NCBI GenBank assembly: GCA_021234155.1
Contig: JAJEKV010000057.1
Coordinates: forward strand, 3,069,821 to 3,133,820
Length of the DNA stretch: 64,000 nt
Direction of reading: 5' to 3'
Origin: Isoetes taiwanensis
Taxonomy: Eukaryota > Streptophyta > Lycopodiopsida > Isoetales > Isoetaceae
This document shows positions 29,936-56,100 of this stretch, in pieces. Under the pieces are notes generated by a model that saw only the letters and a list, made by a program, of their open reading frames with translations, made no database searches and had not been told where the DNA came from. A program made the position numbers and the translations under genes. Every line of letters begins with the position of its first letter. Within the stretch, counting starts at the first letter, position 1.

Positions 29936-30295
29936 TGTTAACCACCTAGTGGTTAACATTGTGCATGCACATGTTAGGTGCATGCACATGTTAGGTGTCA
30001 GTGGTGGCAGACTGACACTTGGCATGATTAGGTTAACATAAGTGTAGGGATTAGATTTACATAGATGTACGGCTCAGATTTGTGGTCTACACTATATTAG
30101 ACCGGAGCCTCTTCAGATGTACTCAGGTTTGATCTCATATTTGGAGAGCCTCATTTGGCCACGTTCCCTTCATTCTTTGTACATATTTGTTTGTCTTGTT
30201 CTTGTTTTGTGATCATGAGCATGGCAGCTTTGTGGCATCCGGCGATCATGGAATTTCTTCTTTGCGAGGTGCATGCCAAGAACTCACCACTAACA
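29936..30295 (+). repeat. Left LTR of the non-autonomous element
   Basis: 360 bp LTR containing a tandem pair of a 17-base unit (GCATGCACATGTTAGGT) and the palindrome TTAACCACCTAGTGGTTAA at its start. It has about 15 bp (CTATATTAGACCGGAG) near 30090-30110 not found in the right LTR. Confidence 0.85.
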
Positions 30296-32404: not shown

Positions 32405-32749
32405 TGTTAACCACCTAGTGGTTAACATTGTGCATGCACATGTTAGGTGCATGCACATGTTAGGTGTCAGTGGTGGCAGACTGACACTTGGCATGATTAG
32501 GTTAACATAAGTGTAGGGATTAGATTTAGTTAGATGTACGGCTCAGATTTGCGGTCTACACTAGCCTCTTCAGATGTACTCAGGTTTGATCTCATATTTG
32601 GAGAGCCTCATTTGGCCACGTTCCCTTCATTCTTTGTACATATTTGTTTGTCTTGTTCTTGTTTTGTGATCATGAGCATGGCAGCTTTGTGGCATCCGGC
32701 AGTCATGGACTGCTACTGCAGGGTGCATGCCAAGAACTCACCACTAACA
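32405..32749 (+). repeat. Right LTR of the non-autonomous element
   Basis: 345 bp copy of the left LTR, preceded by the purine tract AGGGGGAGGCAG at 32393-32404. It is similar enough to the left LTR to suggest a fairly young insertion. Confidence 0.85.
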
Positions 32750-35250: not shown

Positions 35251-35255
35251 CATTT
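35251..35255. other. Left target-site duplication (CATTT)
   Basis: CATTT directly before the left LTR is repeated at 62149-62153 directly after the right LTR. This shows that the two LTRs are the ends of one insertion. Confidence 0.9.
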
Positions 35256-36901
35256 TGTGACGTTCCAGGGGAATATACGCCATAGATACATATATTTCTG
35301 GACCCGTCACTATACAAGTTTACACTTGTAGCCTTGTATACCTTAGAAGTGGCAAGGGGCACATATCTAAGTTAATTGTTTAACTTAGATAACCTTAGGA
35401 TAAGGCCCATTTCCACATGGCCTTATCCTATTGGGCAACCGCCACACAACCCCATCCTAGTGGTGCCACGTGGCATCCCATGTGGACCCTATCTTATATT
35501 AGTACTAACCCTAACCCTAGACCTCTTTTCCTGACTCTAGCACCTGAACACTCCTCTACGCACTCGAAACCCCGTTTCGAGCATCGTTCGTCGTAGCATA
35601 GCCTGGTGCAGCAGCCCCCGAAGTGTGCGCATGATTGTAGAGGGAGCACGACCTCGACCACATCAAGGAGCAATGGAGACACCAGGAATGGGAGGAAGCG
35701 CTTCTGGGGCAGGTAGGTGGAGTAGAGTTCATAGTGGTTCATCTGGAAGTTAGTACTCCAGATGGGTCTGTGTGTTGTATCTAGAGTAGAGCCATCCTAG
35801 AACCTTTGTTGAACATCTTGAACCCTAATCAAGGAACCCTAACTGTAAGTTAGATATGTATAATTAGGTTAAGATGTTCTTACTATGATTATCATGACTT
35901 GATGTTATGTGATGTTGGGTGATCATGTTTGGTCCTCTTGTATTGGGAAGGGGGGTAGAGACCTAGCAGCCATTATGTAGTATGCTCCTAGTCTAGATCC
36001 CTTAGTTCCTATTAGTTGTGGCCTGTGCATAGGAACCCACCAGGCTATGGAGGCTATGATGTGACTCAGCACTACATAACGGGGCTAGCGGCAATGCGGA
36101 GGGAGGATCCCTGCCGAGTGGGGGCTTCGGGGGATCCCATAGTGGGCTAGACTTATGGTCGGTCACTTCGTGTGGGCCGAGCATGGGTCTGACACCTCCT
36201 GGGGCAATGATGCCGCCCTGCCTCTCAAGAGTTGCAAGTGTCAGCTTGGCTCTTGTTTTGGGGGGTCCAGTCGGGTATGAATCGTGTGTCGCCACGATTC
36301 TCTAGTCGCCCGAGGAGCCTCTAGACCCCGGGAAGGGGAGATGCAACCCTTCCTTCCTCGACGGACCAGGGAGATGCAACCTGGAGTAGTCCCGATGGGT
36401 GATGCCATGGGATTACGTATCCGGAAGGCTAGAGTCATGCCAGAGCTTGGTTGAGCCCATCTGCAAAGTATGCACAGGAGGGGCGGATGGAGTGGTCAAC
36501 CCTAGCCATTGTCTTATGCCAGCCCCGCCATTGTCATGATTCGGTCTTCTCTATCTTGAGGCCTATCCAGTCAGTCGACTTCCATATGAGTCAGAGCCAC
36601 GGTAGGAGCTCTCATGCTTTGTGGCATATGAGTATGTTCTTTGCAGCTATGGATATGTGGATGAGCTACCCTTCGAGGTAGTATGTTGTATTGTCATTGC
36701 TAGTTCTGACGATGTTTGTGCTTTCGCTGTGATAGGAGCCCATAGGGGAAGGGCACGCAAGACACCTTCGTGTTCCCTTCCCGCACTATGATCATCTTAG
36801 AGTGCAGGATAGACAAAGGGCCCGTGCGGTTGAAGGACCAGATGGGGGATTTCCTGCCGGGTATACGGCCGGGCGCCGTATATTTAGCAGGGAGCGTCAC
36901 A
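35256..36901 (+). repeat. 5' LTR of the giant chromovirus
   Basis: 1,646 bp, from TGTGACGTTCC to GGAGCGTCACA, with short inverted ends (TGTGACG/CGTCACA). Near 35500-35520 it contains TTATATTA followed by ACCCTAACCCTAG, a telo-box-like motif found in many plant promoters; both occur at the same place in the 3' LTR. Compared with the 3' LTR it has extra blocks of about 16 bp near 35445 and about 45 bp near 36490, plus scattered substitutions. Confidence 0.92.
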
Positions 36902-36902
36902 A

Positions 36903-36914
36903 TGGTATCAGAGC
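36903..36914 (+). other. Primer-binding site for initiator Met-tRNA
   Basis: TGGTATCAGAGC begins two bases after the end of the LTR and is complementary to the 3' end of plant initiator methionine tRNA, the usual minus-strand primer of plant Ty3 elements. Confidence 0.92.
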
Positions 36915-37487: not shown

Positions 37488-38609
37488 ATGGCACGCACCA
37501 AGCAGACAGCAAGGAAGTTTGGTGAGAGACCCACACCCCCGATAGCGGCAGCAGCAGCAGCAGGACGCCACGGTAAGCAGATTCCGTCACACCTTCGGCC
37601 ACGGCAGGAGGACGAGGCGCCGTCGTCGTCAGACGACACCTTTCACCCTTCGGAGGAGGGCAGTCCTAGCAGTAGCAGTAGCTCTTCGTCGGCCCAGTCC
37701 CAGCAGACCGGCCAGACAGTTCATGTGGGTGACCTCTCCGGCCGAGAGGAAGAGCAGGACGACGATCAAGAGCAGCAGCACCAGACCCAGGCTCAGGAGC
37801 CAGGCTCCTCTCCACTGAAGAAGAAGGGCAAGAACAAGGTCGCAGAGTGGGCAGAGGAAACGACAACAAGGAAGAGGAAGGAGAGGGAGCAGAGGGAGAA
37901 GGAGCGGCGGACAAAGAGGAGAAATGACAGGCCTCGCGGGACCGTCGTAATTGAAGAATCTCCCCCGCACGAGGTGGAAGGAAGAGGCGAAGAGGAGGAG
38001 GAAGTCCAGGAGGAGGGAGACGAAGTCATTGGGGAATCCTCAGACCCCAACGCACGCCCACCCTACCCGAAGTGGCCCAAGCCACCGAAGGTAGTAAAGA
38101 AGCAGAAGGTGGGTGAGCGGCCATTCGCGCTCCGCGAGGAGCGCCAATTCAAACGCCGCATAAGGGCATACCAAGAGTACCTCCGTCGCTGGACGAGGTA
38201 CAATGACTGGTATTGCAAGCAGAACGTGGAGCGCTACGTCAAAGGCGGCCGGCCGAAGAAGAACCAGCCGAAGCCGCCACCTCCACGTCCGGAGAAGCCG
38301 AAGAAGGTCCACCATGGGCCTAACTCTCGGCACGCCCACGTCTTTCGGGAGATTAGGCACTTTCAACAGTGTACTAATCTCCTGATTAGGAAGGCGCCGT
38401 TTGAGCGCCTGATGCGGGAGGTGATGCAAGAATTCGTGACTGATTACAGGGTAACTTCCTTAACCACACGAGTCTTGCAAGTAGCTGCCGAAGCAGAGCT
38501 GACGCAGCTTTTCGAAGAAGGCAATCTATGTGCCATCCACGCCAAAAGGGTAACTGTCATGCCCAAAGATATCCATTTGGCGCGGAGAATTCGCAAGGAG
38601 TACCCTTGA
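37488..38609 (+). CDS. Histone H3-like protein encoded by a retrotransposon
   Basis: Intact 373-codon, intronless ORF. The start at 37488 is chosen because it gives [10 protein letters not shown], identical to the first nine residues of mature H3 with Lys4, Arg8 and Lys9; the Ser10 position is Phe. Residues about 25-285 are unlike any H3: Ser-rich, then Glu/Asp/Gln-rich, a Lys/Arg block, another acidic block ([12 protein letters not shown]), and a Pro/Lys-rich linker ([12 protein letters not shown]). Residues 287-373 align without a gap to H3 residues 49-135; by hand count 55 of 87 match canonical H3 as I remember it, including all of [10 protein letters not shown] and MPKDI. Cys110, His113, Arg116, Asp123 and Leu126 of the H3-H3' interface are kept. 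The start of the fold ([13 protein letters not shown]) recalls CENH3, but loop 1 has canonical length. Lys56 and Lys79 equivalents are Gln and Val. Predicted nuclear and nucleosome-competent, by inference. Confidence 0.9.
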
Positions 38610-38810
38610 GGCTCCTAATTTTGTAATTATATTTTTAATGTAACTTTAACTGTTTTCTGTAAAAATACAGTCCCCTTGTCCTTGTAAAATTAATGACAAT
38701 TCGGTATGAAAATATAGTTAGATAAGTTAGATTGTACTAAAATTTTTTGTATTGATCTTGTAATAGTCTAGCTACCATAACCCTAGTCAACCAAATCACT
38801 TTTTTTGATC

Positions 38811-38905
38811 AAAATTGGCGAAACCGGAAGGGTCCGCACCAAAACCACTTCCGACCGCTTCGGAACGTGATTTCGCGCGAACCCTTTCGATTTGGCCTTC
38901 TGGAT
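38811..38905 (+). repeat. Hairpin direct repeat, copy 1
   Basis: About 92 bp unit starting GCGAAACCGGAAGGGTCCGC and ending in CGCGCGAACCC(T/C)TT(T/C)CGATT. The outer arms CGGAAGGGT and ACCCTTCCG are inverted repeats, and the inside carries CTTCCGACCGCTTCGGAA, a second inverted pair. Base changes in this copy (TTTCG for TTCCG) weaken the outer stem slightly. Confidence 0.75.
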
Positions 38906-39000
38906 GTCAATTTTTCTCAGGAAAGTTGCAAGCTAGACTAGAGTTGATCAATTGGTCATGTTAGGATCTTCTAAACCTCAAAAATTTGTCAAAATAGCTC

Positions 39001-39095
39001 CAAAATTGCGAAACCGGAAGGGTCCGCGCCAAAACCACTTCCGACCGCTTCGGAACGCGATTTCGCGCGAACCCTTCCGATTTGGCCCTTTTTGG
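39001..39095 (+). repeat. Hairpin direct repeat, copy 2
   Basis: Second copy 190 bp downstream, with a perfect outer stem (CGGAAGGGT/ACCCTTCCG). Conservation of both stem arms while the flanks differ suggests a selected RNA or DNA structure, or a recent local duplication. Confidence 0.75.
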
Positions 39096-39260
39096 CCTAA
39101 TTTGACCAAATTTGACTCAACAACCTGCGATGTAGTGTTTCTTGCTTTGCTTTGCTTAGATTTGCACTTCATGGTAGCTCATTTGGACACCCATAGCCCT
39201 CGAACAAAAGTTTTTCCTACCAAGAACCCCTGTGCACGGAACCCAAGGCAGACCTTAGCC

Positions 39261-39267
39261 TATAAAA
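39261..39267 (+). promoter_or_regulatory. Candidate internal TATA box
   Basis: TATAAAA in the context GCCTATAAAAGGGAGC, about 115 bp before the ATG at 39379, with C/T-rich start-site-like sequence about 30 bp on. It would allow the second ORF, and perhaps gag, to be transcribed apart from the LTR promoter. Inferred from consensus only. Confidence 0.45.
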
Positions 39268-39378
39268 GGGAGCTCCATTTGTCATCTTCCCTTCACCAGA
39301 ACTGCTCTTAGCATCCTAGGCGATTTTCCAGTTTCCTATTGATCTTTGCAAGCCATTTTCTACATCCATCCCTGCTTG

Positions 39379-40893
39379 ATGGCGCCCTCTAACTTCGTCA
39401 GATGGTACGATGCTGCCAATCATATCCGTGAATTTCTTGCTGAACAAGCCTTCCATGTCTTTGACCACCTCTTTGACCTCCATGCAACACTCAGTAGAAC
39501 TCCCTATTACACTGATATCATGTGCCAATATGACCAGCAGGTCCTACCCTGGGAAGTTAGCTTGCTGCCTAGGGGAGGGAAATGGGTATCCCTAGACTCG
39601 CTCCAAACCTTAGGAGGAGGATCCAAAAGCAAGCTGTGGGATAGGACTAGACCCATGCCTGACTACATGACCTGCAAGCATAATAGGCATAGATACCTCT
39701 CAGCCCCTGCAGCCCTAGCTTTGTTCATGCAGTATAAGTCAGTCAACAAGGCAGGAGAGCCCTCAATTCAACCTTTAGATTTAGTATCTCTCGACACTCG
39801 AAGGGAGCAGATCAACATCCACGAGATCCAGTCTTCAGAGTACGAGTACTATGGCCCCACCTCGGGAACACCGACACTGCAGATTGAGCAAGACTACGAG
39901 CAGCAAGGGGAGGAGAACCCAGATTAGAAGAGGAGAGAGGCAAGAAGGATGGAGAGGTGAATAGCTAGGCAAGAAGGCACATTAAGGCGAGATTTTGAAC
40001 CGCCAATCGGCATCACGGCCCTGTCACCAATAATCATCGACGGCGAGGAGTACATCTTGGCCAACGACATCCTCAACCTTCTCTATTGCCAAGAAGAAGG
40101 CCTCAGGATTGATGAGCTCTTAGGCTTAATTGCAAAAGAGCAGGGCAGCGACTTCATCGACTACTCCTACCAGGAAATTCCAAGGGAGCTAGCGGAGTGA
40201 CACTCCTACGCCGGGGAGCCAATGTCGGATATAGAGGCCTATCAGCAGATAAGGGAGATCTATCGGCATCAGGAACCCATCATTCCCGAGGAGGAGTTCC
40301 AGCAGATACAAAGCAGATTGTACAAGCCAGGAAGAGGTCCAAGCTCTAGCCGACCAGTCCGTTCCAGGAGTTCGCGTGAGGCACACGCCAACATCAACTT
40401 GGAGAACGCAACCACAATGTGGAGGGACCATGAAGACCTCCTAGCTCTAGAAACCTATGGGGAAGCAGCTGGTAGAAAAGGCACAGGTTCCAACATCACA
40501 GGGAAGGGCAAGGCGCTTCGATACTATCTTCCAGACCTTAGTCAAGGGCAGATGATAGTATTTCACAAGGAGTTTAGCCCAAGAGGAGAAGAGTCTGTCG
40601 CGCTCCTCGTAGCCCTCTCTGGCTTTGGGCAGCACGCCAAACTAAACTACAGATTGGATCATGTTATCCTCTTCAAGAGATCCGTAGTTCTTCATTGTCT
40701 CGACTTTGCCAGAGGACACCTCAGGGATGCAACGTTGTCAGTAGTGGCGGTGACGGCACCCGAACTCCCAGCGCCTCAGATGGCCAGAGCACTTGAAGGG
40801 GGATCGGCCGGAAAGATCTTGCAGAACGTCGGCAAAGGCCTACGACTCAAGAACGTCAAGGACTTCTTCAAGTCCATGAGGGGGCATCGATGA
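39379..40893 (+). pseudogene. Second element ORF, unknown function (three in-frame stops)
   Basis: A single 505-codon frame from ATG 39379 to the stop at 40893, broken only by TAG at 39925 and TGA at 39958 and 40198. It begins MAPSNFVRWYDAANHIREFL. The middle is acidic (IIIDGEEYILANDILNLLYC) and the C-terminal part has a globular-looking region (GKGKALRYYLPDLSQGQMIV, then HVILFKRSVVLHCLDF), ending in a basic helix (LRLKNVKDFFKSMRGHR). I do not recognise the family; it is not gag, protease, RT or envelope. All three stops could come from CAG or CGA by C-to-T change. It lies between the H3-like ORF and gag, in the same orientation. Confidence 0.65.
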
Positions 40894-41215: not shown

Positions 41216-42597
41216 ATGACGGTGGAATCAATCAACGCAAGGCTCACCCAGATGATGAACCAAATGCACCAACTGATTCACTGGGCCACCCCATTGATGA
41301 ATGCCCAAGAATATGCACCTGCACCACCACCTCCTCCACCACTACCTCAGCAAGGCATTGAGGAAGGTCCACAACCAGAAGGGCAAGACAACCAGGGAAA
41401 TGTCAGAGACAGGAAGAGAAAAAGGAGAACCCGAAGGACCCCAACACCATCCAGCTCCAGTGCATCAGACACTTCTGACAGCCAGGACAGTTCTAGCTCA
41501 GACAGCGAGTCCGTTAGATCACAGGTAAGGGCCAGGGCAAAGAAGACAGATGACTATCAGAAGAAAGTGGACATCGCTATGAGCAATGTATGGAAGACTA
41601 GGAAGTTGGGATAGTTCTCAGGGAAAGACAGGTCAGGTATGGAGGCAGAAGCTTGGCTTGACGAGATGGAAGAGTTTGGAAATTCTTATGGCATGAAGGA
41701 CAAATATATAGGGAAAGTTGCTACAGCCAACTTAATAGGAGCAGCTAGAATTTGGTGGAAAGGGTACGCGAAGTCCAATAAGCTGAAAAGGAACAGTTGC
41801 AGATTCAAGACCTTCAGCAAGGCTTTTCGCAAACATTATGTGCCAAGATCACATACTAGCAGGCAGATCCAACAATTCTACAGATTGAACCAGGGTACCT
41901 TGTCAGTAGCAAAGTACACAGAGGAATTCATGCGGCTCAGGCTCCATGTTCCCGGAGTTTCTGAAAGGCAAGTGGTTGAAACCTACATTGAGGGATTGAA
42001 CAGCAACATCAAAAGGCTAGTTCGAGCAATCAACCCAAAGTCAGTGGCAGAAGCCGAGGATAAAGCCATAAGCTTGGAAGAAGCTCCAGCAACTCCAGGT
42101 GAGAAACAGTCGGCCTTCAAGGGTAAATCAACAGGGCAATATCAAGGGCAGTGCCAGAGTAAGCAGTCAGCACCTACGCCATCAGGAGGCCAGCAGCAAG
42201 GAAAAGTTCAGGGTAAGGCCTTTGGGGACTGTAAGCCGCAGAATGCATCAGGGGGCAGTGCGCTAAAGCGTCTTTTAGACAGTCTGCCGAAAGAGAAGAG
42301 ACAGGAGTGTATCGAGAAGAAGCTATGTTTTAGGTGCTTCCAGCCAGGGCACCGAACACATGATTGTCCATTTGTCATGCAGGCAGCTTTGGCAGAGCTT
42401 GGGGATTGGGATTCACCAACAGAGGCAGACGAAGATGACAACCAGCAGGACGGCCAAGACTTCATAGAGGGTGAGTGCCACATATGTGCAAACATTGAGT
42501 CAGGTGATATTGAAAATCAGTCCACAGTCATTGCGGCTGAGGGAATCATAGATAGCAGTCCATATCTAGTGTTGATAGATACAGGTAGCTCTCACAA
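41216..42597 (+). pseudogene. gag: Gag polyprotein with zinc knuckle
   Basis: Ty3-type capsid/nucleocapsid. It starts MTVESINARLTQMMNQMH, followed by a Pro-rich then Ser/Asp- and Arg-rich linker. A TAG at 41612 sits where related Gags read (Q/K)FSG. The capsid core follows: EAWLDEMEEFGNSYG, ARIWWKGYAK, QFYRLNQGTLSVAKYTEEF. A CCHC zinc knuckle (CFRCFQPGHRTHDC) is at 42325-42367. Gag forms the particle and packages RNA; the zinc knuckle binds nucleic acid. The frame runs directly into protease, as in Gag-Pol fusions. Confidence 0.85.
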
Positions 42598-43340
42598 TTG
42601 CCCTAATGAAGAATAAAGTCTTGAAGTCTAAGCCAAGGCCAGTTAGCATGGCAAACAGTGCCATTCGGCACACTAAGGGGAGGAGGATCACATTCGACAT
42701 AGACCTTACTGGAAGTAAGTAGCCGATGGGGGCAGAGGTCATGGATATTGGAAGGTATGACCTTATAGTAGGAATGGAGTTCCTAAAGCCAGCGAAAGCC
42801 ATGATCGACTGCGACCATAATGAGATCTCCATGACAGCACCGGACGGCACCAAATTCATAGTGAAAGGTAAGAAGGTAGCTTCTCCCATGCAGTGTATTT
42901 ATTTGAAGCAGCTAAGGAAAAGTATAGAAAGAAATAAGGTGGATTATATCCTGAGGTTAGAAGCAATTGAACCAGCTAAAGAGAAGGGAAGTGACCAAAG
43001 TGGGAATCAGTTGCCCAAGCCAGTAGCAAGGCTCATTAGAGAGTTCAAGGATGTATTCCCAGATGAAATCCGGCAGCTACCACCTTATAGGGGTGTGGAG
43101 TGTGAGATCACACTAGCTCCAGATGCTAAGCCTACCAGCAAGGCACCTTACACCCCGGAGTTGATTGAACTCAAGAAGCAGCTGCAGGAATTGCTTGATC
43201 TTGGATTTATTAGGGCAAGTGTGTCTCCTTTTGGAACGCCCATACTCTTCATGAAGAAGAAGGACGTGAGTTTAAGAATGTGCATAGACTATCGCCAGCT
43301 CAACAAGCAGACGATAAAGAATAAGTATGCTTTGCCAAGG
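42540..43340 (+). pseudogene. pol: Pol part 1: protease and RT fingers
   Basis: Aspartic protease core LVLIDTGSSHN, with DTGS at 42578-42589. One base is lost near 42597, so the rest of the protease is in the next frame, where a TAG at 42719 replaces a likely CAG. RT follows: [12 protein letters not shown], then the primer-proximal finger [20 protein letters not shown] and [12 protein letters not shown] further one-base loss near 43340 ends the frame. These breaks prevent full-length Pol translation from this copy. Confidence 0.85.
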
Positions 43341-44463
43341 TAGATGATTTGATGGACCAGCTCCAAGGAGCAAAAGTATTCTCTAAGATTGACTTAAGGT
43401 CAGGCTACCATCAAATAAGGATAAAGGAAGAAGATATCCATAAGACCGTCTTCAGAACGCGGTACGGGCACTTTGAGTTTACGGTAATGCCCTTTGGCTT
43501 ATCGAATGCCCCGGCAACTTTCATGCGTCTCATGAACGACATCTTCAGGGAGTTCTTAGATGAGTTTGTTATTGTCTTCTTCGACGACATTCTAATCTAC
43601 AGCAAGTCCATTGAAGATCATTGTCAGCATTTGAGAAGAGTGTTGGAAAAGTTGAGATGGCATCGGTTGTATGGGAAGCTCTCCAAATGCCACTTTGCTA
43701 CCGAAAGAGTGGAGTACTTGGGCCATGTGATATCAGCAGGGATCTCCACCGACCCCGCAAAGATTGAAGCAGTAGTTGATTGGCCAGCTCCAAAGAATGT
43801 GGCGGAAGTGAGAAGCTTTCTAGGTCTGGCAGGATATTATAGGAAGTTCGTGAAGGACTTCGCTAAGTGGGCGTCCCCTTTGACGGACCTCACTAAGAGT
43901 GTTAAGGTGAAAGATTGGAGAACACATTGGCTAGAATATGTCCAAGCTTCATTTGAAAAGCTTAAGGAAGCCTTAACAACAGCACCAGTGCTAGTCCTGC
44001 CGGATCCAAATAAAGACAAGATAGTAGCAACAGATGCAAGTAAGATAGCAACAGGTGGAGTCCTTATGCAAGAAGGAAGAGTAGTAGCCTATGATTCGAA
44101 GAAGTTGAACGACACCGAGCAGCGTTATCCAACCCATGATCAGGAACTTCTAGCTATTGTGAGAGCTCTTCATATTTGGAGGCATTATTTGCTTGGAAGG
44201 AAATTTCAGTTAGATACTGATCACCAGAGCCTCCAATACATCTTTACCCAACCACTCCTCAATCTAAGGCAAAGGAGGTGGATGGAATTCCCTGAAGAGT
44301 ATGATTTCGAGATTGCTTATAAGCCGGGTAAGTTGAATGTGGTTGCTGATGCTCTCTCTAGAAGACCCCTTGAGACGAGAACACATTGTAATGCTATATC
44401 AACTCTTTAGAGTGCAAGAAAATTGAGGAGACATTACCATCTGATGGTGATTTCAAGGAGATA
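43341..44463 (+). pseudogene. pol: Pol part 2: RT palm and RNase H
   Basis: Continues RT in the shifted frame: [25 protein letters not shown] and the catalytic FFDDILIYS (FFDD at 43577-43588), then the thumb ([12 protein letters not shown]). RNase H shows [27 protein letters not shown] and VADALSRRP, i.e. the conserved acidic positions. A TAG at 44408 follows. The frame after it runs to GDFKEI, where it is cut by the DNA transposon at 44464. Confidence 0.88.
44462..44463. other. TA target duplication, left
   Basis: TA next to the start of the transposon, repeated at 54896-54897. With one TA and the insert removed, the retrotransposon reading frame continues without any break, which fixes both boundaries. 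Confidence 0.85.
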
Positions 44464-44491
44464 TAAGCACGAATTCATTAATTAGAGAAAT
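44464..44491 (+). repeat. Left terminal inverted repeat
   Basis: About 25-28 bp, beginning TAAGCACGAATTCATTAATT and matching the right end with three or four mismatches. Similarity fades after the AGAGAAA that follows. Confidence 0.85.
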
Positions 44492-45022
44492 TTGGAATTC
44501 TCGTTTAGCATGAAATAGGTTAGCGGGTTGCCATATAGTGCAAAAACTACTACCAATTGAGTAAAAGTTGGCGTTTTTTTGCACAAATTCTGCAAATGCT
44601 TCAGTCTTATTCGGAAATATAGTTTTTACTGCTAATGCAAAGGTTCACCGCGAGTATAACGTAGTAGGAGGGAGTGTGAAAACTTCTGCGAAGAAGCGAA
44701 CGCCATGTTTTTCACTGAAAGGAGACGAAAGAATGTGCCTTTTATTAAAACCATATGAGAGCATTGTGTTAAAAGAAGGTACCGAGGAGTTACCACAATC
44801 ACACAAAATTCAGTATTTAAAGCCATGTAATTGCTACAGAGGATCGCGGTCGCGATTATTTTTAGCATTTAACATATGGTAAAAGATATGGGTAAAGACA
44901 AAACCAAAGTTTTCGAAACAAAAGTTTTCATTGAAGGAAGTAATATACAACATAATTACTGATTGAAGGAGATAATTATTCTGATTGTGTTTCAGATACT
45001 TGATCGTGGTATCACACCCATT
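44492..45022. other. Transposon left flank, no gene
   Basis: Non-coding. Contains one GATCGCGGTCGCGATT palindrome at about 44842-44857, close to the transposon end as expected for a subterminal transposase-binding site. Confidence 0.4.
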
Positions 45023-45361
45023 TCATTGGCCATCACGATGGACATGCTCTCTACCCAATTCCATAGCTTGTGTTGTGTCCATCTCCTCGAATAACTGTGA
45101 CCTCACGGAATCAACACCCATGGCGTTTATGATCTTGGCTACCGCAGATGTGAATCGGGGCTCCCATTCTTCATCGTCTCCTTTGACCGCCTCCCGCCTA
45201 TAAGTTCGTTTTTGGTAGCTCCTTGCAGTAGCATTCTGAGGTGGATGATAGAGCTTCTGCTTCTTGCTGTGTACCTGATGCTCCTGTGACCCAAGAACCT
45301 CATCTTGGTCAATGACCATGTGCTGTTGGTCTGCTTCCATGTGCTTTGGGTCTGTTTCCAT
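45023..45361 (-). pseudogene. Unrecognised transposon protein fragment
   Basis: 112 codons from an ATG at 45361. A Met/Glu/Gln-rich start (KHMEADQQHMVIDQDE) is followed by a basic stretch (ATARSYQKRTYRREAVK) and an acidic, helical end (EWEPRFTSAVAKIINAMG). Composition is protein-like. No domain is recognised. It could be the N-terminal exon of an accessory protein coded on the minus strand of the transposon. Confidence 0.35.
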
Positions 45362-47252
45362 GTGTTCTATGCAATGTATTCAAACTTATGTTCGCCTGTC
45401 AAGAAAGGCATGTACCCATCAAGCTTCTCATTAAGTGCATGCAATTTTTGGAAAGTGGGCTCCAGGGCTTCTATACCTTTTTCCGTCTCTTCAAGCAAGC
45501 GCTTTGTTTCTTGCATTCTCTTCTTCATTAGGACTTAGCATCGAGGTTTTTCCAAAATGGAACCCAACTTTGATAGATCTGTGTTTTGGGTGATACCGAT
45601 GTCGGGTTGAGCTGGATCGGGGTCAACATTCTCTCGCTTTTCGCTCGTCCTCAAACCCATCTAAGCACTTGGATTGGCCATCTTATCAAAGCGTTTCAAA
45701 GAACGCCCTCGAAACGCGACACACTTTACCCGAACTTTGAAAGCCACGCTCTTTTTGCCTTGCATAAGAGCAACACGGAAGTCGCCCCCAAAAAAAAGAA
45801 ATCCGAACACAACCATCGGTTGGCACCCCACCGCTCAAAGAATATGGTAGGCATAGGAGGTTTTCAGCGGCATTTCAATACAAGATCTCCTTCCATTGCC
45901 GCCCATTTGAATCTTGGTTTTGCACGTAAAGAGTCGATATTTCTTTTTATCTTCTCGTCGGCATCCTCATTACCTGCTAGCGGCATTGGAGGCAATGGTG
46001 TTGACTTAGGAGCCTTGCCGCAGGGATATAGGTGAAGCTCCAACTCACGGTTTGCACAGTGCTACCTAACATCATCACCCCTGTTAATGCACATATGACT
46101 AATAAAGTAATCGATGTTCTTTCACCCTTCTTTTGCTCTCCCATCCCATTTCTTCATAGGAACCTAAAGATAGGTAGCCACCGCCTGAATTTGCTTCCTC
46201 GAAACAAGCAATTGGGCAAATTCACCGAGCGCATGATAATGACCAAGTGATAAACTTTGGCATCCGGCCATGGTAGCTATCCTTGTAAATAGATCTGTGT
46301 ATTTCTTTGCAATCCCATACCTTGTTTATCCCTCGGATGTCAATAAATATCGATTAATCGCATTCTCCGACACTTGGGAGGAAGTAGGGATGCCATCCTT
46401 TGTCACTTTGCTATGACAATATTTTTCTTTTCCTTTCTTTTTCTAGCCTCTTCCGCTTTAGAATATTCCCGATTGGCTCCAAAAGGCTACGGGTGTAGGT
46501 TACCTAGTGTATGATCCTTGTTATAGTTAGCCTTCACGCACTGTATTTTCGATTCCGATATATCCAAATTCTCTGCTCGATTGAAATCAGGAAAAGCCCA
46601 AGCAATTCCTCCCGACTATCGAAATCCTTTTGCAAAGAATTTGAGGCATAAGACAAAATTTCAACCTCATAAAAGTGAGGGTTCTGATGTCAATTGCCCG
46701 TTATGCGCAATCAAATCTCCGCTATAACCTTTGCACCTTTAAATAGGTCTTGCCTTCTATAATCTCATCGAAAAACCGTGACAACTCGCATTCGACATAC
46801 CTCGTAGTAACCGGAGCCAGTGTCTTGTTAAAGAAGTCTTTGGATGGCTTGTCCGGAAACTCACCATGATCGCCACCGAAGTTACGACTCACCCACGCAC
46901 TCCAACTTCCATTAACTTCTTGAAAACCTTCTCATCCATAAAAATGAATTGCTTTTCATCCTTAAGCTCCCGTGACTTTCAAGGTGGTCGTTGCAATTTC
47001 ATGGAAATCCTGCGGAAGCAATTTCAAGGTCATCAAGATCGCGACATGAACTTGGCGAAGTAGAAAACAAATAAATACCTTCCAAGCTGAAGTTTTAGCT
47101 GTCCCTATAGGTCCTTGTGGAGGGCAACCATAAGCCTTGTGCTGATGACGAAGTTGTTGCAGTTTTTCAATCAGTGGCTCTCACAGACACGGTGTTTGCA
47201 ATTACCGTTGCATTGAATACTCAACTCTATATATTCCTTATGCATAATATGT
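45362..47252. other. Transposon interior, no supported gene
   Basis: Many short open frames on both strands, none recognisable. Short words and abrupt frame changes suggest heavy decay or uncorrected sequence error. Confidence 0.35.
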
Positions 47253-48447
47253 TCAAAGACCCCTCGATCTTCTTCTAGCATATACTTTGGCAAATTCTCG
47301 TTCTTTGCTTTCGAACTTCACCGACGATCGAACAAAGGAGTTGTGCAAAGCACAAATACTGTGGTTGCCGAAAATAATATAAAATTTCTTGCCCTTCAAA
47401 TCTTCCGATTGCTCCATGTCACCCTCCTCCTCGAAAGATAGACAACCCGTCGTCAAATCTACATAACGAGTGTCCAAAAGATAAAGAATTAGTTACCTGG
47501 TAATAGGGTCAAACGGAACGACGTCAGCAGGGGTGAGGACCTCTGTCGGGTATGTCTTGAAGCTTTTAACCAGAGTTTGAACATGGTCATTTGACCGCAT
47601 TCTGTGTGTCAAGTTTGCTGGTGCAGGTTCACAATCAAAAATAGAAATCTTTGTAAACCAATTAACCCCTAAGGGGTAGAACCTTTGAACTGCTCAAGCT
47701 TCGAGTGGTTTGCTCTCGCCATCTTGCGTTCCTCTTCGGATTGAACTTCAACTCGACCGAATGGCAAAATTGGGGCCATGTCAATGCTAGTTTAGAGGAG
47801 GCATTCAGAATCGAGGGGGTTTGAGAACCTATTTGGGCTCATGGCTATCCTCACGAGGTGTCAGATTCTTAAGGCTAATTTTGAAAGGAGGGAATTTTTT
47901 TGGAATAAATCCACCAGATGTATTGCTATCTGGGGCCTTCATAGCAATAGGAAGAGTAGGGTTAACAATACCGGAGGGGTTTATCGTGGATTGTGGTTCT
48001 TGAGCAATTTCTTTTGGTGCTGAGGTCTCTCCCAAAGTAGCAATAGGCTTCACACTCTTTTTCTTGGCCACGGCTCTTAGCCAATTGGTGTCCATCACGG
48101 AGGGCATCTTCTCGTCCCGAACCGCTTTCAAGGCACAAATGGAGGCTTCTTTGTCCAGAGACAAACCATTTCTGCATGTCGAGAACCCGAGCAATATGTC
48201 TCTGTTTCCCTTTATACCTGACAAAGAGAGAGATTCATAGGATGGCAACAACCAGCCATACCCCTTAGCTGACGTCGGGACGTTTTTCCCTGTGGCTGGC
48301 TTGTTCATTTTGGGCTGTCATCAAAGACGGGTCATAATTGCGCCATTTCAAAATGTACTCCGTGAACCGCAATGCTTGTGGGTCCTCAATGCCGCATATG
48401 ATGGCATCTTGCACATTGTTCTTCGTGCCTTCCCACATTGCCACCAC
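47253..48447 (-). pseudogene. Unrecognised minus-strand transposon ORF, broken
   Basis: Three protein-like pieces in different frames, read right to left: 48265-48447 (ICGIEDPQALRFTEYILKWR), 47829-48308 (DKEASICALKAVRDEKMPSV, then a Pro/Lys/Ser-rich tail), and 47253-47477 (FGNHSICALHNSFVRSSVKF). They could be one gene of about 350 or more codons with indels. No catalytic motif is visible. Opposite strand to the transposase, which is usual for large transposons with two transcription units. Confidence 0.35.
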
Positions 48448-48699
48448 TATGCCAACTTGTTCAACGCCCTCGCCTTTTTTCCAAATCAGCGGAAACAGTA
48501 ATGTGTCCTTTTGCGATCACCCTTAATGTGCGAGATAGCCCGGGTAATCTCGATACACCATTTCCTTTCATTGGAAGGGGTTATAATCTGGACCGCTCGA
48601 CATCCGGTCCTCTAAGAGAGCAAGTCAAAACAAAAGCTCAGAGAGTGCCCGGTAGGTCGTGCATAATGTGGTGCAATAAAGAGGTTTAAACCATCAGAG

Positions 48700-50470
48700 A
48701 AACGCGACCGCGATCCCCGCCAAGCGCCTAAAATAGAACTTCACACAACATGGCCACGCGACTTTGTGTAGCACTTAAGCACGGCAAGAAAACATCGCTG
48801 TCGCGAAACTAATGACCTACTACACTAGTAATCTTGATGAACATCGCAATAAAGAAAATCTATGCTCAGCCAGCACCACGGTACCAAGCGATCTTGATGA
48901 ACAGCTACACTTATGAAGACCGCTATCCGAAATTATAAAACCAATCAAAGCAAGACCGCGTCACATCTTGATGAGCAACTACACTTATGAAGAACGCTAT
49001 CTAGAAATTATAAAACCTATCAAGCAAGACCGCGACCGCGATCTTGCCGAAAGCATCTATACTTATGAAAACAATAGAAGTTCTAGTAGGCAAGATCGCG
49101 GGCCGCGATCTTTGGCCGAGCTGAAATGTTAGAAAATACCTTCTCGACGAGAGTCCTTAGGTGCCATGGGATCGCTACCGGGTTCAAGATCTGAAATATG
49201 GGTTTTTTTGGAGTGGGTCTGGGGCTTCGAGGGTCGGGCGCTGGCTGAATGAAAATCGTGGAGTAGAAATTAGTTTTTGAATGTTTTGAGTTTCAATTTA
49301 TAGAACGCGTCAGCGAAATTAAATGCCCGCCCTCATGATGGCGCGAAAAAAACGCGTGCCACCATAATGGCGCCGTCGCCGCGATAATAATTACCGGCGG
49401 CGCGTTTTTATTCCCCCGACATTAATGCCGGGTCGTGCGAATATACCCGTCCTCCGAAAGGCCAAGAACCCGTCACGAAAGGTCTTTATCCACTTAGACG
49501 TCCCGTTCAATTTCGGTCATAATTTCGGACGACACTTTATCCACCATAAATGCCTCCAAAATATCCGGTTTTACGGACGGACAAATAACGCAAAATTTGA
49601 ATTCGAGAACAAACCAATTCAAGAAAGGGGAAAAGCCAATTCAAATTTCATTGTTTTGCAAGATCTTCGAGGCGCTGAGCGCCTAAAAGCCGGGCCAAGT
49701 TTGGGCAAGGATTTGTCGCAGAATTCGCATCCATTGAAGGCGCCGACGATGGCGCTGATAATCCGCTTGCAATCCGCCACTACACACTCTAATTCTGCAA
49801 TCGTGATCAATTCAGGTTTCTCCCGAGGTAAAAGGCCTATTCTCGATGCATATCCCTCACTCAAGTGAATCAGACGATCGGCAATGCAATCAATTTCAAT
49901 TATAACTGCAACCTCCGAAGTCTCCGTGACTAACATTCACTATGTATTGCATGGATTGATAAGATACCTCGATACTTTGTTGCAACTATGTAAAAATAGA
50001 TGTTCTAAGCAAAACTGCACTCGGTGTGTTTATTATACAATGTAAACGTGTTTCAAGTATATACTTTCTTTCTATGTGGATGAAACTAAACACCGCTTTT
50101 ATGACACTAAACACCGTATTACGTGAGGTAGGAGTAATGCCTTATTCTGTAAGTCAATCGTTTAACTTTGGTGCTCCACGAGATCGCGGTCGCGATACCT
50201 TCAACCATCTACACTTGCTATTGACCAAAGAACTCCCGGATATCGATAACTTAGAGTTGAACCCACTAGCTAGCCTCGAAATTTGATTTGCACGAAGTTC
50301 TTATTGAAACAAAATAGTGTGAATGCTTGCAACTAGCGCCGACCGTTCTTACCCATGCTCGATAAGATCGCGCATGGCGAATGTCGTGACCATTTCTTAT
50401 TTTTCAGTTCATATTTTTGTAGTGGTTTATGATCACGCGTTTTTACGCTCACTAGGATCGCGGCCGCTCT
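48700..50470. repeat. Dispersed GATCGCGGTCGCGATC palindromes
   Basis: Besides the copy at 44842, this palindrome or a one-base variant occurs at about 48702 (CGCGACCGCGATC), 49030, 49096 (GATCGCGGGCCGCGATC), 50181 (GATCGCGGTCGCGAT) and 50456 (GATCGCGGCCGC). All lie inside the transposon and none elsewhere in the window, so they are part of it, perhaps protein-binding or methylation-sensitive sites. Confidence 0.65.
48831..49110. repeat. Tandem repeat of about 70 bp, four decayed units
   Basis: Units start (G)ATCTTGATGA near 48831, 48890, 48966 and (as ATCTTGCCGA) 49040. The two middle copies share CTACACTTATGAAGA and GAAATTATAAAACC. Copies end in AAGACCGCG or AAGATCGCGG words that belong to the palindrome family of this transposon. 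Confidence 0.7.
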
Positions 50471-51119
50471 ATTCACGACCTCTTGTTTGGAGGATGGCTG
50501 ATGTAATTCCGCTGTATCTGCTGGGGAAAAAGGTGGCAGAAGGAAGAGTCCACAATTTCGAGCGCCATCACAATTCGACTGTCCCGGAGGGTATGGTTGT
50601 CGTTTCAATTGTGAATGTTCTGGATGGACATTACGCTACCAATTCCTAATTGGAAATAGAAAAAAAAAAAATGGGTGAAGCCGTAGGGACTTTTGTGTTG
50701 TGGTACAAGAAGGACATTGTTGCTCCACTAGATAGACATGAGGAAGCTTGCACCCCACCGTGTCGATAAAAGGATAGACCGGGGTGATGAGGGAATGAGG
50801 GGTTAGCCACTAATGAGACGAATCATGTGCAAGGGCTTTCTAGAGATGAGTTAGTTGAGAAGGCGTGCACACTCATGCATGAATGCTGCTACATGGCTTA
50901 TGCCTATGGTGTTATCATTTTTGCCGATCCAAACCATGTCAGTGGTCGGACGAAGTTAGGGGGAAGGCTCGATAGCTCGCTACTATCATGAACATTTTTC
51001 CAATGCCCGAAAAGATCTCTATCGCCGCCAGCCGGGCACGTAAATGCCCCAACCGCATGACCTTGTGAGATGGCCCATAGCCCTCGTGCTCGTTGATAAC
51101 ATTCCGTTTCTACTCTTGT
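49111..51119. other. Transposon interior, CpG-rich then AT-rich, no supported gene
   Basis: A CpG-rich patch at about 49300-49470 (GGCGCGAAAAAAACGCG and similar words) precedes AT-rich sequence. It may be the promoter region between divergent transcription units of the transposon. Open frames here are not protein-like enough to call. Confidence 0.35.
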
Positions 51120-51129
51120 GGTTGCGGTG

Positions 51130-53556
51130 AAGGAGAAGGATGTGGAGAATGAACCTTACTCCATTAGACCCGAATTGGCATCACCAAAAAAGAGACCTTA
51201 CAAAGATGGTCAATTGGAGACCCGAACACGCCCAAAGACAGACTAAATGTGAAAGAAAAACTAGTGCCGAGGCTATTCTAGACTTCAGGTCATCAACGTC
51301 TTTGCATGAAACGATGTTTGTGCAAATTTTACATCCCGTGAGATAGCTTGCATGAGAACCTTTTATTGAACATGAAGTCCCTGAGCGCACAACTTTTGCA
51401 TATAACATGCTAGATCTTTGCTCTGAAAATGGTGTAGTCCGCAAACCGATGTTGAATAACAAACGGTGTGCGTGAAAGCATGGCATAAAGCCTATGGCAT
51501 TCCCATTTCCACTTTTACAAGTGGAAGAAGCTCTTCAATGACGGCCACGTAATTGCCGAGCACGCGGAAATACTTGGGTCTAAGAAGCCAAGGTCTCATA
51601 CTTTGGCCGGCAATGTCGCATATCCATGTTCATAGATGAAAACGCAGAGACGATGCCACACCGCTCAAAATTACGAAAGGGAGGGTAATGATAAAATGTT
51701 AAGAGGCTACCTTCGGTCTTGACTAAGAAGGATATACACCAAGAAGTAGATATTTCCGCTACTGAGATGACAGTGCAAGCATATTTCTCCTTCGTCATTT
51801 CGCCCGCTTGGAAAGAGAATCATTCGTGAGGTAGCAATAGCTAAGAGGATAGCATTTTCCAAGTGTAACACCCGTATTGTCATAAAGGAAAAGCTTGCTA
51901 AGACCAGAGATCCAAATGAAAGAAGGGTACTTGCAATAGAGAGAAAAATCACATATGACGCCCAGATTTCATGCGGAGCCTTTTTATCGGTCCCGGAGAG
52001 CTTTGTCGATAGATCTCCCGAGCACGCTTTAACCATTATACATGATAAGATGGATCAGAATAAGACCATGGTCCCTCGCCTAGAGAAGCTAGCAAAGTCT
52101 GTATGGAGGGGTGAACGACTGAAGGTCAGTGTTACAGGTGCTCTCATGCACGGCCATGGTATAGGTGCCTTGGGCCACTTCTCACTGGACCTCTGGCCTG
52201 ATGATTCTAATTTTCATGTGGGATCCTTGAATCATACCTTGAAGACACTGGAGAATAAATCTGAGGATAATTGGGGCCATTTGAGAGATACTGATCGTCC
52301 CGAAAAGCAAAAAAAGTGCAGCAATTTTAAACACAGATAACCTTAGGACAAAAATGATGAATGGCAGTAGAAATGATTTTATGCCTCCTATCAAAGGCCC
52401 CATGGTAGCAAACAAGTTGCCTAGGAGGCTTTACTTGCAGCTAGATAATTGCTCAGTCGAGAATAAGAATAGATATCTTTTCTCTTACTTGTCATACTTG
52501 GTTTGGTTAGGTGTATTTGATCAAGTGCAACTGATTCATGATGGTTGGACACACCCACGATGACATAGATGCCCTATTTGGAAACTACTCTACTCTAATG
52601 AGAAGATCAGATGCATTGACTATTCCGGAGCTTATGCAACTCTTCAGGCAGTGTAGTTCAAAGGCTCCTTCACCTTACCTTGTGACAGAGGTTCCTGATT
52701 GGAAGGAATTCGTGAAAGGATTTATCCCTGATAAGAAGGACCGTTTATGTGGTCACTTGGAACCTCTACTCTTCAAGTTTTGCATGAAGGATGGATGGCC
52801 ACTAATGTTCTACAAGATGAGGCCAGGGCATAGGGAGTGGCTCCCTGAAAAGGGAATCAGAATGTGGAAGGAGGATGCCCAAGGTTTACCTATGATTCCG
52901 AGAGGGTCACCTAAGGTCCTGCAGCCATATGGGAGCTTGAAAGATATAGGTGCATTAAGAGCTTCTATTGCCAAGTACATGATGCACTGGGCAGCTATTT
53001 CTAGAGCTGGCGATAAGTCATGGTCCAACACATATATGAATGAAGTTATTGACTACTGGTCCACCTTGTGCTGCGAAAGTGCTTGGTGACGCAGCCCCAG
53101 AGCTGTCATTCAGATTTCGGCCCAAAGACTGTGCAAAGTGCATTGGAAGAACCCGAAAGAGTGTTTGTGGATGAGCACATTGAAGCATCTCATTACGTAG
53201 GGCCTTTCTGGGTAGACCCAAGAACCCATTGAAATATTCGACCCCTACCAAGATGTCAAGAAGGGAATGCTCTTGCTAATCGGACCACATGATAACCGCC
53301 CGACATGGATGGCTTTTTGCCCGAACAGACCCAAAGAGAGGACCCTAATCTCCCACATTATGAAGAGGTGTTTGTCTCTTGGTTTGAACCTCATTGCGAA
53401 AGGGAACCTCATATGCAATGCAAAGATAGGGATTGTTGGAGCAAGAATTGGAGACCCAATCCTAATGACCCGCCACGCTACCAACCTTTGAAAACAATAG
53501 ACTATGGTTGGGCCAGAGAGACCAGGCCATTGTCGCTGGTGATCCCCAAGTGTTAG
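51130..53556 (+). pseudogene. DUF7869-type transposase-like protein, frameshifted
   Basis: Coding sequence runs through several frames. The best pieces are 52050-52340 (MDQNKTMVPRLEKLAKS, then VTGALMHGHGIGALGHFSLD), 52354-52563 (RRLYLQLDNCSVENKNRYLF, then SYLVWLGVFDQVQ) and 52538-53089 (THDDIDALFGNYSTLMRR). The order MDQNK, LQLDN..ENKN, GHTHxDxDxLFG is that of DUF7869 proteins, which I know from plant, algal and oomycete repeats. The spaced acidic residues (Asp of MDQ, Asp of LDN, Asp/Glu of HDDID) look like a DDE/D-type active site, but that is my inference. Downstream to 53556 are WF/EPHC and CKDRDCW, possibly a zinc-binding tail. Upstream to about 51130 are cysteine-poor remnants (LHETMFVQILHP, FAYNMLDLCSENGVV). 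Confidence 0.65.
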
Positions 53557-54870
53557 GTGTTCTCGGGCTTGCAAGAATTAGTGGCTAAAGAAGCTAAGGA
53601 CGATGATGAGAACTCTTGAGGTATGCAATGCTCTTTTACATAATTACTATATCATTCATAACATGAAAGTTACAATAGACTAGTTATTATTTGTTACGCT
53701 CTGCGTTTTCCATCTCAACACAAGAGCTCTTACACTATACAATGCTAAACAGGTGATTCATTCACCTTCAGGATCTGTAGTAGTGATCCCTGATATCTCA
53801 TAGCTCATTCGCCAGAAGCCAAATCGATGGATCATTACACGAATTGACGCAGGGCAACGAATCTCAGCCCAAAGCTTTTCTTCGCAGGTAGGGATCAAGA
53901 AGAAGATGCCCTGCCTAGGCAACCAACAAGATCGAGAGGGCTCATTGAGCACTTGATCGCCTCGATGTGGTGAATTGATGAAGGCAAATAATCCATGTGA
54001 GAGGAATGAACTTTAGCCCCGGGTGAGAAGCTTTTATAGTGAGGTAGAATTATTGAGGTGAATTATTGGGGTAGACTTCTACCCATTATTGCTCGTGTAT
54101 AAGACCGTTGTATAAATACAAGTATAATACATCTTTTTCGTATGGATATATGTATGCGTACTAATATGCATGTTTCAAAACATGTTTGCTTGACGAATTT
54201 AGCTATGATTGAATTCAATGACAACTTTGCGTAATAAGTGGAGGTGGGATAGCACATCGTTACAATATACTCGCTAAGGTAATTGATATTACATCCTTAA
54301 TCGTAATGCTATTACATCCTTACTTAGTTATTAGGTACCCATGTCATTATTACATTATTAGCAGTGTGCATTCACTTTCGCCATCAACATCAAAGCTCGC
54401 GGATGCCATTCAGCCATAGATCTCCGATCGTGAAGCCAAGAAATATGGACTTTAACGCGAGTGAGCTTCCTCGCAAGCACTAGCAGGTCCATCAGCTTTA
54501 GATAAGAGCCATGGATCAAGCTTAACGCTATTTCTAGCACATTCGCCTGCATCGTTGTAGCTCAAGTAACACTTGAAAGAGCGGATGTGCTCGACAAGGC
54601 ATCGAGGAAGCCATGGAAGATGAATGGCCTCTACCCCCTCGTGAAGCCGTTTTTATAGTGAAGTAAAATTATTGAAGTGAATTATTGGCGTACGATGTAG
54701 GGCCATTATTGAGCTTATACGAGTGTCATGTACACGTACAAGTATAACACAAAATTTGTATGTATATGTGTATGTTAATTACCTCATGTTTGTTGGGGTC
54801 GAGTACTAGGTGAAAGTGTTCGTGCTTGAGCAAATAAGGTGTGCTCAAAATTCTCAAAATTGCGTTATTT
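53557..54870. other. Transposon right flank, no gene
   Basis: Non-coding. The text (G)AAGCC(G)TTTTTATAGTGA(A/G)GTA(A/G)AATTATTGA(A/G)GTGAATTATTGG occurs near 54028-54068 and 54645-54685, a direct repeat of about 45 bp in the subterminal region. Confidence 0.5.
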
Positions 54871-54895
54871 TATCCAATTAATGAAATCATGCTTA
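54871..54895 (-). repeat. Right terminal inverted repeat
   Basis: Reads CCAATTAATGAAATCATGCTTA on the plus strand; the reverse complement matches the left TIR. TA (54896-54897) follows. Confidence 0.85.
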
Positions 54896-56100
54896 TATGG
54901 GAAAGCCTCTCTAAGGAGGCTAGAACAAATAAAGAACGGGAAGCCTTCAAGCATTATAGGAAGGAAGGCAACTTGTTGTACCACAAGCATAAGTTGTGTG
55001 TGCCCGGATCATCAGGTATAAGGAAGTTAATTCTTCACGACACACACAATAGCCCAATAGCAGGGCACGCGGGGTTTATGAAGACCTACTTCAAGATTCG
55101 AAGTAGTTATTTCTGGCCGGGAATGAAGAAGCAGATAGCCAGATATATTCGGGAGTGTCAGTTGTGCCAGCAGACCAAGGCAGAGCAGCTTCGAATTCCG
55201 GGAGCCTTGGAACCTTTAGCAGTGCCGAATGCGAAATGGGAAGTGGTAAGCATGGATTTTATCGCAGGACTTCCTAGAACTCTTCGAGGCAAGGATGCAT
55301 TAATGGTTGTCGTAGACAAATTATCTAAGATGGTACATTTTGTGCCTTGCAAGACTACGGACATAGCATTAGATACTGCCAAGCTATTTGTAAAGGAGAT
55401 TTTTAGAGTCCATGGCATGCCTCAGGAGATAATTTCGGACAGAGATTCCAAGTTCATGAGTGCTTTTTGGCAGGACCTCTTTAGCACCATCTAGACGAAG
55501 CTCTCCATGAGCACGGCTTATCATCCGCAGACGGATGGCCAGACGGAGCGCACGAATCGAATCATTGAAGATATGCTTAGAAGTAATGTGTGGAATAAGC
55601 AATCCAAGTGGGATGAGTACATCCACTTGGTAGAATTCGCCTACAACAGTGCCAAGTAGGAATCATCCCAGATGTCTCCCTTCATGGTAAACTACGTTTA
55701 CCAGTGCCTAACCCCGGATACTTGGCACAATCCTGTGTCAAAGGTTGAAGTATCCCAGCAGATGCTAGGAGATATGCAGCAGCTGGTGGAAGAAGTAAGG
55801 GGGTACTTATTAGCAGCAAGAAGTCGGCAGAAGAGTGTAGCCGACAGGCACAGGACCGTAAGGGAGTTCAAGGTAGGAGACAGCGTGTGGTTGAAGATCA
55901 AGGTGAAGCAAGCTAAGCTTCGGATTGGGAATTATAAGAAGCTTGCCCCTAGGTGGGCCAGTCCATTCAAGATCTTGGAGAAGATGGGCTCGCAGGCCTA
56001 CAAGTTGGATCTCCCGGCGCACCTTAAGGTCCACAAAGTCTTCCATGTAAGTTTATTGAAAAGGCACAATCCTAACCCTGATGAGGTCTTGGATATACTC
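54896..56100 (+). pseudogene. pol: Pol part 3: integrase
   Basis: Resumes the pol frame exactly after the transposon. The zinc-binding HHCC module (ILHDTHNSPIAGHAG ... CQLCQQTKAE) is followed by the DDE core: MDFIAGLP, ISDRDSKF and HPQTDGQTERTNRIIED. The GPY/F-like C-terminal module shows LAPRWASPFKILEKMG and AYKLDLP. TAG codons at 55492 and 55657 break it. Integrase inserts the element's cDNA into host DNA. A frame slip near 56100 separates it from the chromodomain. Confidence 0.88.

Follow-up and report, generated by a model that had tools for sequence, protein, structure and literature searches.

A gene for a histone H3-like protein is a standing component of a chromovirus lineage in the Isoetes taiwanensis genome, where it occurs in the layout LTR, primer binding site (PBS), H3-like ORF1, ORF2, gag, PR-RT-RH-IN-chromodomain, LTR. 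Because this layout recurs, extends to a distant family and is accompanied by purifying selection, we regard the H3 as a gene of the element and not as a passenger. The initial annotation of the window (the whole stretch of 64,000 nucleotides analysed here) had proposed a captured histone H3, remodelled and kept because it helps the element, perhaps in packaging, nuclear entry, chromatin targeting or escape from silencing; independent copies, dN/dS values far below 1 and a distant family with the same layout now support capture, remodelling and retention by selection. As for what the protein does, the role that we consider most likely, at a probability of roughly 0.5, is that of an H3 variant that would pair with host H4 and act in chromatin for the element.

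An H3-like gene precedes gag in an LTR retrotransposon

ORF1 (37488-38609, + strand) runs from ATG to stop without an inner stop and encodes 373 residues. It is the first long ORF downstream of the LTR, with its ATG 585 nt from the primer site and several short upstream ATGs ahead of it. Residues 1-10 are those of H3; a variable charged region (~13-190) and a conserved linker (~191-284) follow, and an H3 fold (285-373) completes the protein. In a Pfam search (E up to 0.1), the sole match of ORF1 is Histone PF00125 (7.5e-30, residues 257-369), and the top matches in a PDB search are H3s (best 4.4e-29). As initially reported, the final 87 residues match H3 49-135 in a gap-free alignment; the earlier hand count of 55 identities gives way to 57 of 87 against a host H3 (L046). 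Profile and gap-free alignment thus place the fold among H3s, and the protein departs from them in the length and sequence of its tail, where the match is confined to residues 1-10.

The unique middle of ORF1 exists as first described and is somewhat longer than the roughly 260 residues then given, measuring about 270 (residues 11-284). Residues 20-284 had no match at E 0.001 in a large protein database (best 8000 candidates scored), and because protein sets may omit masked elements, this null result for the unique parts is no proof of absence from other plants. Four further protein-database matches were inspected, and these are tandem or fused canonical H3s. Tandem H3s contaminated both alignments prepared for structure prediction (A1 and A2), of which A1 did not serve as model input. 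The two single-chain models of the H3-like protein are both poor (mean pLDDT 51.4), and the H3 fold and its predicted pairing with H4 are therefore read from sequence.

The element that carries ORF1 spans positions 35256-62148 and comprises two LTRs, flanked by the target-site duplication (TSD) CATTT, and two nested insertions. The left TSD (35251-35255) lies directly 5' of the TGTGACG that begins the 5' LTR (35256-36901, + strand; TGTGACG...GCGTCACA), which is exactly where the homology of several copies starts; the same five bases (62149-62153) follow the 3' LTR (60560-62148, + strand), and the aligned parts of the LTR pair are 95.2-95.8% identical. The PBS (36903-36914, + strand), read from the sequence as TGGTATCAGAGC, is presumably of the initiator tRNA-Met type, and the same bases come after the LTR in other copies (L010, L011, L015, L017, L020, L023, L026 and L028). 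The placement of ORF1 as the first ORF after LTR and primer site, with an H3-type start, therefore stands as annotated.

Downstream, the + strand carries two ORF2 pieces (39346-40893, as 39346-39927 and 40222-40893), which are partly homologous in a second family described below and have no Pfam match, the second piece also lacking a PDB match. Next come gag (41216-42616, as 41216-41614 and 41639-42616; Retrotrans_gag 9.1e-18, Ty3_capsid 6e-16, and a weak CCHC knuckle) and the PR, RT and RNase H part of pol (42726-44464; RVT_1 2.8e-32, RT_RNaseH 1.2e-32, RVP_2 weak at 0.049). A 10.4-kb insertion nested in pol (44465-54894) has apparent terminal inverted repeats by eye (ATATAAGCA..) and is probably a DNA transposon; beyond it lie the integrase and chromodomain (54895-56342, + strand; chromodomain ~56085-56342), and a second nested insertion of 3.4 kb (57056-60437) sits between the chromodomain and the 3' LTR. 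Truncation of the element in pol is rejected, since the remainder is found beyond the nested insertions. ORF2, gag and both parts of pol are broken among separate frames in this copy, as first noted, unlike the intact ORF1.

Paired TG..CA LTRs, 5-bp TSDs (in three copies) and a tRNA PBS, together with the order of gag followed by PR-RT-RH-IN, are those of a Ty3/Gypsy element. In L029, the region homologous to the window's integrase and chromodomain matches Integrase_H2C2, rve, SH3_Tf2-1 and Chromo (2.8e-11) in Pfam; given this C-terminal integrase chromodomain, also present in the window, the element is a chromovirus by architecture. Elsewhere in the window, 30000-30252 and 32469-32709 are direct repeats 2.46 kb apart and 97-99% identical, possibly the LTR ends of a short element.

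The gene recurs in independent copies

A search of the 1.66-Gb assembly with the ORF1 protein returned at least 111 matches (best 110 of 21346 candidates scored), and a hand count of those listed gave 65 free of stops and 46 with stops. Since in this search, as in the two described below, only the best candidates were scored, our copy counts are lower bounds. Twenty copies were fetched with flanks limited to 10 kb each, and by hand count 18 of them have ORF2 sequence downstream, 17 have gag sequence and 11 have an RT close to the window's. One copy (L011) measures 12.67 kb from LTR to LTR, with LTRs 97.9% identical and the TSD ACCCG; another (L010) has LTRs and the TSD ACAAC. Within this genome, the ORF thus lies between primer site and gag in independent copies. 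At one further locus (L019), two H3 ORFs of the window's family (family A) lie no more than about 3 kb apart, along with a duplicated 2-kb stretch, an arrangement that is a nested or tandem copy.

Leader DNA alone, used as a query without any H3, located 40 places, 12 of which (window included) adjoin an H3 match. Ten of the other 28 were sampled by 201 nt, in list order except that C911 was skipped because its leader match ends early. H3-fold sequence was present at the expected spot in nine of these ten, short or broken in two (L058 and L064); the single case with no H3 at the expected spot was L059. Across the 22 of 40 places covered by these checks, 21 leader-found copies, including the window's, carry H3 sequence. 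Had ORF1 been a one-off processed insertion, a case that the initial annotation allowed for, other copies of the family would lack it; this is rejected, as independent and leader-found copies carry ORF1.

Two further families and the origin of the captured H3

A differing H3-like ORF directly behind the L011 copy was our first encounter with a second family, B. A genome search for this family gave at least 151 matches (best 148 of 8879 candidates scored), the weaker of which may belong to other families. In family B (L029:4437-5631, L032-L041 and L042), the H3-like ORF1 occupies open frames of up to ~480-546 aa and is accompanied by ORF2, gag and pol. The window's primer-site sequence also lies upstream in six of ten family B loci, and seven of the ten have, downstream, an ORF2 domain akin to that of the window (31-35% identity, E down to 4.5e-8). 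In one copy that was read on, ORF2 (30%, 4.9e-9) is followed by a gag 46% identical over 283 residues to that of the window family, a PR 51% identical over 76, an RNase H 79% identical from the RT end onward, and an integrase; the gag-pol of family B is known from this one copy, in which most of RT proper is missing.

A third family, C, is represented by a 409-aa ORF (L043:204-1430) with an H3 fold (4.3e-41) and an N-domain that by eye resembles that of family B; residues 1-260 have no homologues elsewhere in the protein database. Family C was found at further places as well (G000:C1034, C1053, C1038 and C1088; L051-L054). With canonical H3 as the query, we obtained 15 canonical matches (96-98%) followed by 135 H3-like folds (best 150 of 9022 candidates scored), many of the latter in long open frames of up to 567 aa; a few places are common to this search and that for family B.

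Over the fold, identity to host H3 is 59-64% for family A, 81-89% for family B and 88% for family C, and families A and B are 48-59% identical to each other. An FGDAN signature is present in families B and C and absent from family A. A tree of the ~90-residue fold has support of 0.54-0.64 where family A, CENH3 and host H3 are placed, and does not split one capture from several. The shared position and neighbours of the gene argue for one capture, and we infer that it was ancestral to all three families. Separately, one H3-like fold (L050, G000:C1014:354570-354866) is 90% identical to host H3 and lacks FGDAN; it may represent another capture or a variant H3 of the host.

The ORF might instead descend from CENH3 and steer the element to centromeres. 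Plant CENH3 also begins MARTK, chromoviruses such as CRM target centromeres, and the segment EIRHFQ..TNLLI resembles Arabidopsis CENH3. However, identity to one AtCENH3 sequence is 43-47%, below that to host H3, and the alignment to H3 has no gap at loop 1, where AtCENH3 is longer. Family A and AtCENH3 do group in the fold tree, at a support of only 0.54 and with both on long branches. No host CENH3 was distinguishable among the best 150 matches, a list filled by H3 and element H3s. The higher identity to host H3 and the gap-free loop 1 make a CENH3 origin unlikely, and we think it highly improbable that the protein serves as a centromere mimic.

The element H3 is under strong purifying selection

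Across 20 family A copies (Nei-Gojobori, pooled), dN/dS is 0.137 for the whole ORF (bootstrap 0.112-0.164). By region, the same method and copies give 0.106 for residues 1-12 (bootstrap 0.073-0.246), 0.212 for 13-40, 0.223 for 41-190, 0.107 for the linker (191-284) and 0.034 for the H3 fold (bootstrap 0.019-0.056). The set consists of the 27 best-scoring ORF1 matches minus seven that bear stops (rows 16-20, 24 and 26), so that H3 score and, in part, freedom from stops decided which copies entered it; six of the 20 retain one stop, masked as X, and the in-frame part of L018, L020 and L024 is without a proper N-terminus, a frame slip parting the tail from the rest of the ORF in L018 and L020. 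A second set, made up of nine leader-chosen copies and the window copy and therefore carrying no bias from H3 score or absence of stops, has a fold dN/dS of 0.095 over 45 pairs. Ten family B copies, picked by score, have a fold dN/dS of 0.066. The comparison among copies suggested at the outset thus yields values far below 1, away from the dN/dS near 1 of neutral gene capture, and strong purifying selection keeps the element H3 working.

These values bear directly on the idea that a processed H3 was picked up accidentally and multiplied with the element to no advantage, in the manner of the fungal hAT cases discussed below. Capture would be easy, the 15 canonical host H3 matches being intronless (four were read), and the stops in the 46 listed ORF1 matches would also agree with such a passenger. 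The idea is nonetheless contradicted by the dN/dS of 0.034-0.137, by that of the leader-chosen copies, by the gene's persistence in families whose gag proteins are only 46% identical and by the conservation of linker and tail, and we give it very little credence.

Conservation of the tail raises the alternative that the protein is a decoy, in which an ARTKQTARK or TARKS segment occupies host writers or readers of H3K4 or H3K9 and so relieves silencing with no need for a nucleosome. Over the first 12 residues, ten of the 20 family A copies are identical and eight have one change (the segment was not found in two), in keeping with the low dN/dS of the tail, and family B retains an internal TARKS in eight of ten copies. 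Yet the histone fold, superfluous for a decoy, is the most constrained part of the protein (0.034 compared with 0.106 for the tail); the family B tail is internal and has no free N-terminus, and the family C tail matches poorly (GVAHKAG). We therefore consider a decoy unlikely. The observed pattern, with the fold most constrained, fits an H3 variant that would still pair with H4 while being otherwise deposited and read.

The H3 cassette has diverged more than its LTR and RT

Relative to the window copy, RT has diverged by a mean of 0.06, gag by 0.08, LTR and leader by 0.09 and ORF2 by 0.11-0.13 (10 to 19 of 19 copies, depending on the feature); within the H3 ORF the mean is 0.14-0.20 for variable region and fold, 0.08 for the tail and 0.12 for the linker. 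At third positions, divergence is 0.357 in the H3 fold compared with 0.131 in RT. Because such divergence also marks the non-coding sequence that follows the H3 ORF (0.18), we read the divergence of the cassette as older coalescence, with exchange between sublineages, and not as relaxed selection; a locally raised mutation rate is also conceivable as its cause. Being more diverged than LTR and RT, the H3 cassette may be exchanged between element lineages. The non-coding stretch itself (38610-39300) diverges between copies beyond the LTR and contains a duplicated segment of ~88 nt (38810-39087, + strand, as 38810-38897 and 39001-39087); it is a possible exchange breakpoint or regulatory segment.

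A remodelled H3 that may act in chromatin

Family A keeps R63, K64, R69, R72, R83, K115, R116, T118 and K122, as well as all of 108-131 except I119V and Q125H, and in canonical H3 these positions serve DNA contact and H3-H3 pairing. Changed in family A are K56 (to Q), K79 (to V) and the tail past residue 10. The helix-2 chaperone-recognition motif, SAVL or HAVL in the host, is LTTR in family A; seven of ten family B copies have the HAVL of an H3.3-like host gene (L048), a variant with T31/H87/L90 that we take to be plant-like. With the chaperone motif, K56 and K79 lost, ordinary deposition may fail.

Just one of three HP1 aromatic-cage positions is aromatic in the integrase chromodomain. On that ground, straightforward reading of K9me by this domain is disfavoured, as is a simple loop between the element's own tail and its own chromodomain. 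The domain looks group II-like; a review (PMC12786077) describes group I chromodomains, which have the aromatic cage, as particularly common among non-seed plants, and group II as being without it.

We propose that a canonical H3, intronless or reverse-transcribed, was captured by an element ancestral to all three families and then remodelled. Its product would pair with host H4 and enter chromatin, either in host nucleosomes or on the element's new DNA, and there work to the element's benefit as a variant H3 whose tail has been replaced. The most likely effect would be altered silencing at element chromatin, or help for the cDNA toward a chromatin state suited to integration and expression.

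A role in the particle offers another account of these features: a basic H3-like protein, alone or with host H4, might condense the element's nucleic acid, either RNA or cDNA, within the particle or the pre-integration complex, and aid nuclear entry. The linker and fold are very basic, and families A and B both keep H3 in the company of gag and ORF2. As the first long ORF after the leader, ORF1 is possibly well translated, but the short upstream ATGs mean that good translation is not a given. Moreover, gag has a CCHC knuckle of its own, albeit weakly scoring, and the gap-free H3 geometry and kept H3-H3 surface exceed what a condensing peptide needs, so that we rate a particle role as rather unlikely. 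The H3-variant reading may be carried further, to element-encoded variants loaded onto element cDNA or element-rich chromatin that mark or shield it and have radiated into several families, their cassette evolving and recombining apart from LTR and pol in an arms-race-like relation to host silencing; this extended scenario is a possibility that we advance tentatively.

Comparison with known systems

H3-like genes are carried by hAT DNA transposons in Pyrenophora tritici-repentis (Manning 2013, PMC3538342) and in Pseudocercospora fijiensis and relatives (PMC6710886). They resemble the window element in that a mobile element captured and amplified an H3 gene, and differ in being DNA transposons with TIRs and a transposase, not an LTR retrotransposon lineage; where a hAT has TIRs, an 8-bp TSD and a transposase, the element here has LTRs, a 5-bp TSD and RT/IN. 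In P. fijiensis and five relatives, every copy except the original gene is described as RIP-inactivated (PMC6710886), and the P. tritici-repentis copies are described as recent, near-identical and possibly functional (PMC3538342), whereas here many diverged copies encode a remodelled protein, for which the copies examined give low dN/dS.

Single viral H3s occur in xenomavirus, Dishui Lake phycodnavirus and NCLDV MAGs, and an H4 in bracovirus, according to a review (PMC9145170). These are likewise cases of selfish DNA equipped with one core histone, whose tail is frequently long and altered and which is thought to use host partners, and their fold identity to host H3 (73-87%) is close to that of families B and C and above that of family A; they belong to DNA viruses or polydnaviruses, whereas ours belongs to a reverse-transcribing element. 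The text of PMC9145170 has no occurrence of 'retrotranspos' or 'retrovir', and its two occurrences of 'transpos' concern other matters.

Among plant LTR elements, an orchid Gypsy carries an AlkB/2-ODD domain (PMC9289625) and likewise retains an extra host-like gene over subfamilies; there, an RNA demethylase domain lies in the second ORF of a giant Tat-related element, whereas here H3 precedes gag in a chromovirus. The non-seed-plant chromovirus SM-Tcn1 shares the gag-PR-RT-IN-chromodomain Ty3/Gypsy organization and, as described in Novikova 2010 (PMC2864245), is 5.7 kb long with gag and pol only, compared with ~12.7 kb (L011) and two extra ORFs upstream of gag here. The initial annotation knew of no Ty3 element with an H3 gene, and our search of the open literature, a scope that leaves subscription papers and preprints outside, agrees in finding no histone in an LTR retrotransposon. 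Element-carried H3 is known from fungal hAT transposons and DNA viruses; the retroelement case is new to the open literature searched.

Hosts control LTR retrotransposons mainly through chromatin silencing, and these elements are known to read chromatin through chromodomains, not to supply it. The present findings extend viral histones to reverse-transcribing elements and suggest that a chromatin protein can be produced by a retrotransposon itself. They make available for study a naturally rebuilt H3, with replaced tail, K56Q, K79V and a lost chaperone motif, and prompt the question of how a genome accommodates many H3-like genes borne by elements alongside its 15 canonical H3 matches. If the proposed reading is true, a selected H3 gene in a retroelement would be a direct handle on how an element acts upon the chromatin that controls it.
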